From Bacteroidota bacterium (GTDB lineage: Bacteria; Bacteroidota; Bacteroidia; UKL13-3), in the NCBI GenBank assembly GCA_030680835.1, contig JAUXUD010000090.1, forward strand, positions 1 to 64,000: 64,000 nt of DNA, written 5' to 3'. The number at the start of each line of letters is the position of its first letter. Position 1 is the first letter of the stretch. A model generated the notes under the pieces. The model saw only the letters and a list, made by a program, of their open reading frames with translations. It was not told where the DNA came from and ran no database searches. This document shows positions 33,455-60,957 of this stretch, piece by piece. The translations under genes were made by a program, and so were the position numbers.

Positions 33455-34822
33455 TTAAGGTTTAGGTTTGCGGTTTTGATTGTTACGGTTTCTGTTAAAA
33501 TTGTTGGGTTTACGATTTGGATTTTGCTGATTTGGATTCTGCTGATTCGGATTTTGCTGAATTTTATTTTGTTGATTCGGAACCGTTCTGTTCGGATTAA
33601 CTGCTGATTTATCCGGGGTTTCCGGTGCAGGCTTATTTGTAAAGCCGATGCCTTTATTTTGTGCTCCGCGATTCCGGTTACTCTTATTCCGGTCACCGGA
33701 ATTTCGTTTGCTTCTGTCGCGTTCATCCAGGCGGGTAAGACTGTCAACACCCATATCATTTTTAAACTCAAGTTCTGCTTTTTCAGGTTTAAGGGGTTTT
33801 TTCTCAAAAAGCACCAATTCGGGTTTTTCTCCTTTTCTGTTACTGTCCTGAAATTCTCTGACCTGTTTAACCGGAAAGCTAATCCATTCACCTCCCATTT
33901 CCGTTTGAGGGGCGAACCACATCATACGTTTTAGGATATCTGTTTTAACCGAGCGATATGTTTTCTCATTTGCAAACTGGAGTGTAACTGTATTTTCAGT
34001 TGGAAATTCGCCCAGGGCTTCCATATAACTGTCCAATTCGTAATTCAAACAGCATTTTAACTTACCACATTGCCCGCTAAGTTTTAAAGGATTCAGTGAT
34101 AAATTCTGGTAACGTGCGGCATTTGTATGAACAAGTTTAAAATCTGTAAGCCAGGTACTGCAGCACAATTCGCGCCCACAACTACCAATACCCCCTAAAC
34201 GTGCTGCCTCTTGCCGGTATCCAACCTGACGCATTTCTATGCGTACTTTAAAAGAATCAGCAAGTCGCTTTATCAATTCCCTGAAATCAACCCGATCTTC
34301 TGCAGTATAAAAAAAAGTTGCTTTGCGCCGGTCGCCCTGATATTCAACATCGCTTAGTTTCATGCTCAAACCCAGCTCCATGGCGATGCTTCGGGCTTTA
34401 TACATAGTAGGAACTTCAAGTTCCTGGTTTTCTTTCCATTTGGCTATATCAGCCTCGCTTGCCCTTCTGGTAATCTTTTTAAAATCGGTATCGTTTTCAC
34501 TCCGGTTAAATTTTTTCAACTGCAATTTAACCAGTTCCCCTTTTAAGGCAACTTTGCCAATGTCGTAACCATTTTCGGTTTCAACAACTACAAACTCATT
34601 AATATAAAAATCAATATGATATGAATTTTTATAAAATTCTTTACGTGTACCTTTAAACCTGACTTCAACAATATCGAATGGTTTCATATGAGGTGGAAGA
34701 TCCATCTCACTTAACCAGTTATAGGTATTTAATTTATTACATCCACCTGTGCTGCAACCGCCACTGCTGCAACCTCCGGTGGTACAGCCGCCTGTGCTGC
34801 AACTTCCTGAACCACATCCCAT
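33455..34822 (-). CDS. ricT: RicT/YaaT-type PSP1 protein with Cys-rich N-terminus
   Basis: A 455-residue PSP1-domain protein. In Bacillus, RicT (YaaT) forms a complex with RicA and RicF that binds [4Fe-4S] clusters and affects mRNA maturation; yaaT is also next to holB there, as here. The N-terminus has six Cys at positions 3, 8, 13, 18, 23 and 28, spaced exactly five apart in Gly/Ser/Thr-rich sequence. The PSP1 core spans ~45-280 with GIGSCGRELCCSTWL and SGQCGKLKCCLNYEL, extra Cys clusters. Residues ~355-455 are low-complexity Asn/Gln/Pro/Arg-rich with QQNPN repeats. A 75-bp gap separates it from holB. Confidence 0.9.
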   Translation of the reverse strand: MGCGSGSCSTGGCTTGGCSSGGCSTGGCNKLNTYNWLSEMDLPPHMKPFDIVEVRFKGTRKEFYKNSYHIDFYINEFVVVETENGYDIGKVALKGELVKLQLKKFNRSENDTDFKKITRRASEADIAKWKENQELEVPTMYKARSIAMELGLSMKLSDVEYQGDRRKATFFYTAEDRVDFRELIKRLADSFKVRIEMRQVGYRQEAARLGGIGSCGRELCCSTWLTDFKLVHTNAARYQNLSLNPLKLSGQCGKLKCCLNYELDSYMEALGEFPTENTVTLQFANEKTYRSVKTDILKRMMWFAPQTEMGGEWISFPVKQVREFQDSNRKGEKPELVLFEKKPLKPEKAELEFKNDMGVDSLTRLDERDRSKRNSGDRNKSNRNRGAQNKGIGFTNKPAPETPDKSAVNPNRTVPNQQNKIQQNPNQQNPNQQNPNRKPNNFNRNRNNQNRKPKP

Positions 34823-39703: not shown

Positions 39704-41380
39704 TCAAGACACATTCTGTTTGCCTTCAAGTCTTTGTTTCAAATCCAGGCGATGTTTTCTTGCGGTATCAATGGCAATATCGTATCCGGCATCGGCATGG
39801 CGTATTACTCCCATGGCCGGATCGTTGTGCAGTACACGGGCCAGGCGAAGCGCAGCTTCATCGGTCCCATCAGCCAGTATTACCATTCCTGCATGAATGC
39901 TGTAACCCATTCCAACTCCTCCACCATGATGCACGCTCACCCAGCTTGCACCTCCGGCGGTATTGATTAAGGCGTTTAAAATGGGCCAGTCGGCAACTGC
40001 ATCACTGCCGTCTTTCATGGCTTCGGTTTCACGGTTGGGTGAAGCTACCGAGCCGGTATCGAGATGATCACGGCCGATTACAATCGGACCTTTTACCTTA
40101 CCTGTTTTAACCAGATCGTTAAATGCAAGTGCCGCTTTTTGCCTGTCGCCCTGACCGATCCAGCAAATGCGTGCAGGCAGGCCCTGGAATGCGATTCGTT
40201 CGCGGGCCATATCCAGCCAGCGGTGCAGGGAAGCATTTTCGGGAAACAGTTCTTTCATCACCTGATCGGTTACATATATATCATTTGGGTCACCACTTAA
40301 TGCAACCCAGCGGAAGGGCCCTTTCCCTTCGCAAAATAAGGGACGAATATAAGCGGGTACAAATCCCGGAAAATCAAATGCATTCATAACCCCACGCTGG
40401 TCTTTTGCCTGGCCCCTCAGGTTATTGCCATAATCGAAAGTTACCGCGCCCCGCGATTTTAACTCAAGCATTAATTTTACATGGTGTGCCATGGTATCCA
40501 AAGAAAGCCTGATGTACTTATCAGGGTCTGTTTTACGCATGCGGTCTGCTACTTCTTCTGCCAGGTCTTCGGGATAATAACCATTCAAAGGGTCATGTGC
40601 CGAGGTCTGATCCGTTAACAAGTCGGGTGTAATATTACGTTCAATCATGCGCTCAAGCAAATCAATGGCATTGCACACAACGCCTATCGACAAGGCTTCT
40701 CCAGCTTCTTTGGCACGCAGGGCCAAATCAATCGCTTCGTCAATATTGCGGCTCATCCTGTCGAGATAACGGGTTTCGATACGTTTTTTGATGCGCCATT
40801 CAACCATTTCGGCAGCCAGGCATACCCCATTGCACATGGTAACCGCCAGGGGTTGTGCACCTCCCATTCCACCCAAACCGGCCGTAACCGTTAAAGTACC
40901 TTTTAAGGAGCCTCCAAAATGCTGCCGGGCTGCTTCAGCAAACGTTTCATAGGTGCCCTGTACGATTCCCTGTGAGCCAATGTAAATCCAGCTTCCTGCT
41001 GTCATCTGTCCATACATCATCAGGCCTTTTTTGTCGAGTTCATGAAAGGTTTCCCAGTTGGCCCATTTGGGCACCAGCATGCTGTTTGATATGATTACCC
41101 GGGGGGCGTCTTTATGCGTAGGTAAAATGCCTACCGCCTTACCACTTTGAATAATTAACGTTTCGTCATTTTCCAGATCATGCAGGGCTTTCACAATCAG
41201 GTCAAAACATTCCCAATTGCGTGCAGCTTTGCCGATACCACCATAAACAATCAAATCTTCAGGGCGTTCTGCAACATCAGGGTCCAGATTGTTATATAGC
41301 ATTCTCAGGGCGGCTTCCTGTATCCATCCTTTGCAACTGATTGTATTTCCGGTTGCGGCATGTAAATCTTTTCTGCTCAT
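39704..41380 (-). CDS. hutU: Urocanate hydratase
   Basis: Second step of histidine degradation, converting urocanate to imidazolone propionate with NAD+ as electrophile. The 558-residue protein matches urocanase along its length: [15 protein letters not shown] near the N-terminus, [33 protein letters not shown], and the C-terminal [20 protein letters not shown]. hutH, hutI and hutG are not in the window. It is directly followed by the M1 peptidase, suggesting joint use of peptides and histidine. A -7-like box lies about 38 nt upstream. Confidence 0.97.
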
Positions 41381-41513: not shown

Positions 41514-41776
41514 TGAACAGGTATTTGGAATATGTTCAATTATATGCCATTAAATGGACATATAAAAAATATTTGAATAAAAGTGAACATATATGCGCTA
41601 TGTGTTCAAATTTATGCCAAAAAATGAACATATAGTAAAGAGTAGATAAAAAATGAACACATAATCCGGATATGTTCAAATATTTGATAAAAAATGGACA
41701 TATAATGTTTTGAAATATAAAAAATGAACATATATTTGTATTGTGTTCAGTAATTGTATAAAAAATGAACATATAA
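41514..41776. repeat. 70-bp-period array of TGAACATA boxes upstream of fic
   Basis: Twelve copies of an 8-bp box (consensus TGAACATA, with TGAACACA and TGGACATA variants) lie in fixed order. Forward boxes start at 41514, 41555, 41584, 41625, 41654, 41695, 41725, 41766; reverse boxes (TATGTTCA or TGTGTTCA) at 41531, 41601, 41671, 41742. Each unit is forward, +17 reverse, +24 forward, +29 next unit (30 in the third), a period of 70, 70 and 71 bp. Each forward-reverse pair makes a 25-bp dyad with a 9-nt spacer. Boxes are conserved while spacers diverge. The array ends 6 bp before the fic ATG. Confidence 0.92.
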
Positions 41777-41779
41777 AGT

Positions 41780-42892
41780 ATGGTTAAATACGATCGAAAG
41801 AATCCCTTTAATGAGTTGCCTTTATTGCCACCATCTGAATCCATAATGGATATGGAAATATTGATGAAATGGGGTTATGCCAGCAGGGCATTGGCAGAGC
41901 TCAATAAAAATATTTTACGTTTACCCAATCCGGGCATGCTCGTTAATACCCTTTCGCTGCAGGAGGCTCGAAGTTCGTCGGAGATTGAAAATATTTTTAC
42001 TACGGAAGATGAATTGTACAAGGCGATTTCGGAAACCGTGAAAGAAGAGAATGCAAACAGCAGTGTAAAAGAGGTTTTGCGTTACCGGGAAGCCATGTGG
42101 GCAGGTTACCACCAGATAAGCAAAACCGGTAAAATTAATGAACGCGCTATTGTTAAAATATTCAGAGAGGTAAAAAATACGAGCGAAGGCTTCAGGCCCC
42201 CACAATCTTTGGTGGTAATCAAACGGGGCCAAAGTGAGTTCAGATCGGGTGAAGTGGTTTATACTCCGCCAAGGGGTAAAGGGATTATTGAAAATAAAAT
42301 GAAAAATCTGGTGAGCTATTTAAATGATCACAAAAAATTTACCGCCGATCCCCTGCTTAAAATGGTTATTGCACACTACCAGTTTGAGGCGATACATCCC
42401 TTTACTGATGGCAATGGCAGAACAGGTCGTATTTTAAATTTACTGTATCTGGTAAACCAAAAACTATTATCGCATCCCGTTCTTTATCTGAGTAAGTACA
42501 TCATCGAAAATAAAGATGAATATTATTTTACCCTCGGTGCTGTTACCCAACGCAAGGCCTGGAAACCCTGGATATTATTTATGCTGGAGGCTGTTGAGCG
42601 AACATCCCGGCACAGCAATGGAATGATAGATGATATTGTTGCCCAAATGGAATCAACCTATTTGCAGGGCAGGTCTGCTATTGGCTGGTATTCAAAGGAG
42701 GTAAATGAACTGTTGTTTTCACAGCCTTATGTAAAGGCAAAATTAATTGGAGATGCGGTAGGAAAAACCAGCCGGACCACCATCACAAAATATATGAATG
42801 AATTGGTAGGACAAGGGATATTGAGTAAAAAAACAGACGGCAAAGAAGTCTATTTTTTGAATAATGATTTGCTACGGATTCTTAAAACCTAA
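41780..42892 (+). CDS. Fic-domain protein (class II, probable AMPylase)
   Basis: A 370-residue Fic enzyme, expected to transfer AMP from ATP to a target protein. The catalytic motif IHPFTDGNGRTGR carries His206. The N-terminal inhibitory motif SxxxEN (Ser66-Glu70-Asn71 in SSSEIEN) places it in the self-inhibited class II group, where this helix blocks the ATP site. Residues ~300-370 look like a winged helix (LIGDAVGKTSRTTITKYMNELVGQGILS), so it may bind DNA and regulate itself. No toxin partner or antitoxin gene lies next to it. The upstream box array is the obvious regulatory candidate. Target protein unknown. Confidence 0.93.
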   Translation: MVKYDRKNPFNELPLLPPSESIMDMEILMKWGYASRALAELNKNILRLPNPGMLVNTLSLQEARSSSEIENIFTTEDELYKAISETVKEENANSSVKEVLRYREAMWAGYHQISKTGKINERAIVKIFREVKNTSEGFRPPQSLVVIKRGQSEFRSGEVVYTPPRGKGIIENKMKNLVSYLNDHKKFTADPLLKMVIAHYQFEAIHPFTDGNGRTGRILNLLYLVNQKLLSHPVLYLSKYIIENKDEYYFTLGAVTQRKAWKPWILFMLEAVERTSRHSNGMIDDIVAQMESTYLQGRSAIGWYSKEVNELLFSQPYVKAKLIGDAVGKTSRTTITKYMNELVGQGILSKKTDGKEVYFLNNDLLRILKT

Positions 42893-42914
42893 AACCTAAA
42901 ACCAAATAACTTTA

Positions 42915-57542: not shown

Positions 57543-57612
57543 ACGAAATACGATGTACGATGTACGATGTACGATGTACGATGTGCGATGTACGATGTGC
57601 GATGTGCAATGT
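57543..57612 (+). repeat. Heptanucleotide microsatellite (ACGATGT)n
   Basis: Ten consecutive 7-bp units related to ACGATGT fill 57543-57612, with several units reading GCGATGT and the edges degenerate. It lies between the two permease genes, which would otherwise be close. An oppositely oriented array occurs at 60895-60957. Confidence 0.9.
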
Positions 57613-57659
57613 ACCATTTATTATGAGTGAAGTTGGTGAAATAATAAAGAAAAAAAATA

Positions 57660-60893: not shown

Positions 60894-60894
60894 T

Positions 60895-60957
60895 ACATCG
60901 TACATCGTACATCGTATATCGTACAATGTACATCATACATCATACATCGTACATTGC
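60895..60957 (-). repeat. Heptanucleotide microsatellite (ACATCGT)n
   Basis: Nine 7-bp units related to ACATCGT, the reverse complement of the 57543 array unit, fill 60895-60957, with units reading ACATCAT, ATATCGT, ACAATGT and ACATTGC. It ends directly after the clpS stop codon region. Opposite orientation to the array 3.3 kb away. Confidence 0.9.

Follow-up and report, generated by a model that had tools for sequence, protein, structure and literature searches.

The fic gene and its upstream boxes

The window, by which we mean the whole 64,000-nucleotide stretch of DNA analysed here, carries a solitary fic gene on the plus strand, with a minus-strand gene for a 558-aa protein (39704-41380) on one side and a minus-strand gene for a 1051-aa protein on the other. 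Just 5' of this SoFic gene, twelve boxes of the type TGRACA (plus strand) or TGTYCA (minus strand) were found between 41514 and 41771. The features of the locus are listed below, with the boxes grouped in four consecutive units.

41514..41538, plus: convergent pair of unit 1, TGAACA (41514-41519, plus) and TGTTCA (41533-41538, minus), 19 bp start to start
41555..41560, plus: third box of unit 1, TGGACA, 22 bp past the minus box
41584..41608, plus: convergent pair of unit 2, TGAACA and TGTTCA
41625..41630, plus: third box of unit 2, TGAACA
41654..41678, plus: convergent pair of unit 3, TGAACA and TGTTCA
41695..41700, plus: third box of unit 3, TGGACA
41725..41749, plus: convergent pair of unit 4, TGAACA (41725-41730) and TGTTCA (41744-41749), flanking the putative promoter -7 element
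41731..41738, plus: TATATTTG, match to TAnnTTTG, putative -7 element, 6 bp past the start of the unit 4 plus box
41766..41771, plus: third box of unit 4, TGAACA, the box nearest to the ATG
41780..42892, plus: SoFic-family class II Fic gene, 370 aa, Fic_N + Fic + SoFic-like_C (Pfam, PADLOC, fold match)
41975..41992, plus: inhibitory-helix motif SSEIEN, residues 66-71
42395..42430, plus: catalytic motif HPFTDGNGRTGR, residues 206-217, intact
42686..42871, plus: C-terminal winged helix-turn-helix, residues 303-364 (Pfam PF21248, AlphaFold model)

Judging from its domains and motifs, the fic product is a member of the SoFic anti-phage family. The Pfam families PF13784, PF02661 and PF21248 all exceeded their cut-offs, PADLOC assigned the protein to SoFic with E=9.9e-103 across 355 residues, and the predicted structure matched Shewanella SoFic 3zcn with a Z score of 33.6 and an rmsd of 2.9 over 343 residues. 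SSEIEN fits the class II inhibitory motif (S/T)xxxE(G/N) as defined in PMC9755527, and HPFTDGNGRTGR conforms to the active Fic motif HxFx(D/E)GNGRxxR. In the AlphaFold model, helix 332-344 is in the recognition position and residues 348-361 form a beta wing; both this model and PF21248 agree with the winged-helix-like C-terminus that the earlier note had read from the letters.

Within the 266 bp preceding the ATG, eight plus-strand TGRACA boxes start at 41514, 41555, 41584, 41625, 41654, 41695, 41725 and 41766 and four inverted TGTYCA boxes at 41533, 41603, 41673 and 41744, with start-to-start steps of 19, 22, 29, 19, 22, 29, 19, 22, 30, 19 and 22 bp. Four units with a period of 70, 70 and 71 bp, each in the order plus, minus, plus, were read from the sequence and recovered as a four-copy repeat, exactly as the earlier note had counted them. 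Its placement of the second, inverted box at 17 bp and of the third box 24 bp further on is correct in an 8-mer register, and so is the distance of 6 bp between array and fic, since the last 8-mer stops 6 bp before the ATG at 41780. Eleven 8-mers within one mismatch of TGAACATA were counted in 276 bp, compared to 0.36 expected from the rest of the window. The three-box pattern occurred four times in the 4.3-Mb genome, in all cases within the fic array; a genome-wide regulon was therefore ruled out, the pattern being private to the fic locus.

Identity between the four units amounted to 0.89 in the box columns and 0.55 in the spacer columns, compared to 0.33 by chance for this composition. Since the spacers are more alike than chance, the units may have multiplied by duplication, with the boxes being preferentially kept. 

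Bacteroidetes promoters have a -7 element with the consensus TAnnTTTG. Besides the match to this consensus in unit 4, the TTTG at 41709-41712 is a possible -33 element, as judged from the sequence. Among the 88 close homologues described below, TAnnTTTG was present in the last 100 bp before the start codon in 58, compared to a chance level of 10%, and its start was 6 bp past that of a plus box in 40 cases, while in 46 it preceded GTYCA by 14 bp. The inverted boxes bracket the TAnnTTTG of fic's own promoter, this promoter being assigned by consensus, and a protein on unit 4 would cover the putative -7 element.

The lattice at close and distant SoFic genes

Relatives of the fic gene were collected from whole genomes and a genome collection, and the close set consisted of 88 non-identical proteins with an identity of 58% or more. 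Most of these were 60-69% identical; since they share ancestry, the 88 homologues are not 88 independent events. The search for the same box and spacing before orthologous fic genes, which had been proposed in the earlier note, revealed boxes on the same lattice in all 88 distinct homologues, with 3-12 boxes per homologue and a mean of 5.94 in the 300 bp upstream, compared to 0.29 in 1213 control stretches from the same loci. Missing or randomly placed boxes, which the earlier note had named as grounds for refutation, were thus not observed. Neighbouring boxes were 19 bp apart from plus to minus (136 pairs), 21 or 22 bp from minus to plus (150 pairs) and 29 or 30 bp on the same strand (73 pairs). 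When all pairs were considered, 464 same-strand distances lay in the range of 10-80 bp, of which 447 fell on the lattice. The full unit is {+0, -19, +41, -60} with a repeat of 70-71 bp, and the filled sites vary among loci; the array in the window is better described as such a lattice of four sites in every 70 bp, of which the fourth is empty. Inverted boxes are found here at distances of 19, 21/22, 48/49, 50-52 and 88-90 bp. At one locus (L029/L013 on G037:C71), the homologue is split into two reading frames and a TGGACA/TGTCCA array is still present upstream, so that the putative operator either has survived the disruption of the gene or was there before it, unless the split is due to a sequencing error.

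The distant set comprised 88 homologues of less than 58% identity. For these, the box was defined as the commonest repeated upstream 8-mer, found without spacing information; the finder worked with 8-mers and one mismatch and missed degenerate boxes. The box letters were mostly different in these homologues, with families including TTTACATG, TTACCCTC, TTAAGG and TTAGTGTT. Same-strand distances of 40-42 bp were obtained 80 times, compared to a mean of about 7 and a maximum of 14 in 20 shuffle sets, distances of 29-31 bp 41 times, compared to about 6 in the shuffles, and distances of 69-72 bp 50 times. Taken individually, 49 of the 88 distant loci beat their own shuffles and 39 did not. Similarly, 21 plasmid or viral SoFic loci, mostly from Pseudomonadota where named and with the Salmonella and Yersinia plasmid copies left out, had 14, 11 and 12 distances in the ranges 40-42, 29-31 and 70-72 bp, respectively, compared to about one each by chance. 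A scan of viral contigs with the alignment of the close homologues yielded one locus.

Among 5426 complete E. coli genomes, 278 have a chromosomal relative of a Cedecea SoFic gene. Three E. coli SoFic variants and the Cedecea plasmid copy displayed the lattice with TCGACA/TGTCGA and TAAACA-like boxes, and the steps in E. coli strain E189 (21, 19, 11, 19, 21, 19, 11, 19 and 21 bp, with a 70-bp repeat) are the numbers of the Bacteroidota arrays. The 41/30/70-bp grid recurs before SoFic genes from Bacteroidota to E. coli despite the differing letters.

Some loci of this survey showed additional features. In E. coli E189 (L303), a second Fic-family gene lies directly 3' of the SoFic gene on the same strand, and a similar SoFic/Fic pair, with a restriction subunit gene in between, is located on an Azotobacter plasmid (L207). 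Fic loci of less than 37% identity on viral contigs have upstream boxes spaced by 31, 51, 62 and 70 bp, i.e. related to the SoFic grid yet different from it, and at locus L028 the sequence TTAGTTAA recurs upstream every 41 bp. The boxes at L028 and at the Fic loci of less than 37% identity suggest that self-operators may occur beyond SoFic.

A probable self-operator of SoFic and its alternatives

We consider it probable (roughly 0.82) that the array is the operator of fic itself, and that SoFic dimers bind it through their winged helix and repress their own promoter. With regard to the identity of the binder, box similarity correlated with Fic similarity (Mantel r 0.78, permutation p 0.0005). 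In genomes with at least two SoFic genes, matches to the box of one gene averaged 0.54 upstream of its paralogue, compared to 2.54 upstream of the most similar homologue from a different genome. The genome of the window itself contains a second SoFic gene (L002, G000:C16:40931-41977), 39-41% identical, which lacks TGAACA boxes; the TAACCCAAAA repeats upstream of it resemble the box at its close relative L102 and are candidate boxes. Neighbouring genes were compared for products of at least 70 aa, and each such family was common to at most 5 of 65 loci. On these grounds, a regulator or antitoxin of at least 70 aa shared by the neighbourhoods was rejected, and with neighbours of this size considered, Fic itself is left as the one trans-acting candidate that recurs at every locus.

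The partial correlations of the box were 0.41 with the recognition helix given the core and 0.42 with the core given the helix. In cases where helix and core were discordant, the box followed the recognition helix in 68% (permutation p 0.01), and several segments outside the winged helix, e.g. residues 92-105, matched this performance. As the partial correlations and other segments are equal to the helix in this respect, the covariation ties the box to Fic and does not single out the winged helix; the recognition helix, significant against the core but not unique along the protein, was dropped as proof. The equally good tracking of the Fic core would also fit another host DNA-binding protein that binds the boxes and controls fic in place of Fic. 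We regard such a protein as unlikely, since the letters differ between SoFic paralogues of the same genome and agree between homologues of different genomes, the rest of the genome lacks the pattern, no neighbour of at least 70 aa is conserved, and an identical lattice geometry is combined with different letters across phyla.

As to how SoFic could act on its own promoter, a precedent is provided by CccR of Yersinia pseudotuberculosis, a class II Fic protein with a C-terminal HTH that represses its own promoter and needs both dimerisation and the HTH for this (PMC9755527). The two DNA-binding helices of CccR are 70.2 Å apart (PMC9755527), which at 3.4 Å per bp corresponds to about 21 bp and is similar to the spacing of 19-22 bp of the inverted boxes in the array, although the boxes of CccR itself are 36 bp apart. 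This distance and the autorepression of CccR led us to propose that SoFic dimers may occupy the array and repress the promoter enclosed in it. The dimers would pair via their N-terminal domain, and the two C-terminal winged helices of a dimer would sit on a convergent pair of boxes with a distance of 19 bp. Additional dimers, probably in a cooperative manner, would fill the neighbouring sites 41 and 30 bp away, near the same helix face, and in the last unit the bound dimers would cover the -7 element and thereby repress transcription. In this way, a standalone and potentially toxic AMP-transferase would be kept at a low, self-limiting level, and the purpose of the arrangement may be the safe storage of a phage-defence toxin. 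According to PMC12249575, E. coli Sofic is toxic, and its cloning is difficult even when expression is no more than leaky; tight self-repression would thus be sensible for a defence protein lacking a conserved partner gene.

The self-operator could also have a role in sensing infection. SoFic systems might share a fixed-geometry promoter array on which DNA-bound dimers are stored, and the loss or remodelling of this array during phage takeover, e.g. by degradation of host DNA, would then both de-repress the gene and free or activate the enzyme; we give this extension a slim chance. Slightly less probable still is an array that serves as a scaffold for keeping SoFic dimers on DNA, where occupancy would set the AMP-transferase activity and the loss of DNA or of binding in phage infection would free active toxin. 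Such a scaffold would account for up to 12 boxes, far exceeding the needs of simple repression, and would be in line with the more than 20-fold increase in the activity of the related CbFic2 by DNA (PMC10628234) and with SoFic being an anti-phage abortive-infection protein (PMC12249575). On the other hand, repression and toxicity were reported to be independent for CccR (PMC9755527), DNA activates and does not inhibit CbFic2, and many loci have only 3-5 boxes.

Since convergent boxes are complementary by nature, they might function at the RNA level by forming hairpins in the leader of the fic mRNA. This is highly improbable, as the R of plus boxes and the Y of minus boxes did not covary (A-T 45, A-C 34, G-C 38 and G-T 29; Fisher p 0.13), most of the array precedes the putative -7 element and would be missing from a transcript started at that promoter, the direct plus-plus spacing is conserved as well, and no Rfam match was obtained. 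A neutral relic of tandem duplication or recombination, as could be read from the spacer identity between units, is hardly credible and refuted as the whole explanation by conservation, because both the boxes and their spacing are retained throughout the 88 distinct homologues and recur with changed letters in other phyla.

Relation to known systems and further repeats

The fic product shares with the SoFic family (PADLOC/PF21248; Shewanella 3zcn and 3eqx; E. coli Sofic) the same three domains, the same fold (Z 33) and intact Fic and inhibitory motifs, and the E. coli SoFic homologues have the same operator lattice as fic here. For E. coli Sofic, phage protection is reported in PMC12249575, whose passages considered here do not mention the operator lattice. 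For SoFic of E. coli H397, the same source describes a downstream antitoxin of 47 residues, AS1, whereas the neighbours here were compared at a size of at least 70 aa. No accompanying paper was found for the newest SoFic entries of the PDB (9tch, 9tc4, 9tcl and 9tb0).

The proposed arrangement resembles that of CccR, as published, in the class II Fic fold, the C-terminal HTH, the dimer and autorepression via inverted boxes near core promoter elements. It differs in that the footprint of CccR is a single pair, AGATAATCAT-N26-ATGATAATCT, with 36 bp from box to box, whereas the boxes here form an array of TGRACA sites, 19 bp apart, on a 41/30-bp grid. The 26-bp spacer of the CccR type (36 bp start to start) does not occur among the inverted boxes here, and 36 bp is not a lattice distance. 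In addition, CccR is a secreted T6SS effector (PMC9755527). CbFic2 of Coxiella burnetii likewise is a Fic protein with a DNA-binding C-terminal winged helix, but it bound random DNA well, its AMPylation was stimulated and no operator was defined (PMC10628234). By analogy with CbFic2, DNA could also regulate the SoFic enzyme. The operators of type II toxin-antitoxin modules such as phd-doc are similar in their negative autoregulation via repeated boxes at the promoter of the module; in phd-doc it is the antitoxin that carries the DNA-binding domain, whereas the fic product unites toxin and DNA-binding domain in a single polypeptide, and a conserved partner gene of at least 70 aa was not found.

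A regulatory role of HTH domains fused to Fic was suggested in 2009 (PMC2686095), and since autorepression via an operator of two boxes has been published for a single class II Fic, CccR, the principle is known. The statement of the earlier note that no such array is described for Fic genes thus has to be restricted: it does not apply to autorepression via inverted boxes (PMC9755527), but it holds for the multi-site lattice, its fixed geometry across phyla and its diverging letters, of which no description was found in the literature searched, most subscription journals being outside its scope. SoFic is a widespread single-gene phage defence with unsolved control, as it is toxic, hard to clone and mostly without obvious antitoxin. 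A self-operator that accompanies every close homologue examined and many of the more distant genes, those of E. coli among them, is a concrete candidate answer to this question of control. The rigid grid with diverging letters represents a large natural data set for the DNA-recognition code of this winged helix, and the putative operators are usable to find or re-annotate SoFic genes.

The window contains other repeats as well. The heptamer TAAAACC is present in three exact copies at and right after the fic stop codon (42883-42903). The tandem heptamer TACGATG (plus orientation) and its reverse complement form arrays at 57549-57614 and 60894-60954, both intergenic; since three exact TACGATG units in a row match 137 times genome-wide (overlapping matches), this is a dispersed heptamer satellite. 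Finally, 15-bp tandem repeats, GATTTGGATTTTGCT with 4.5 copies and GTGCTGCAACCGCCA with 3.7 copies, are located at 33514-33581 and 34749-34803, with a period that would keep the reading frame.
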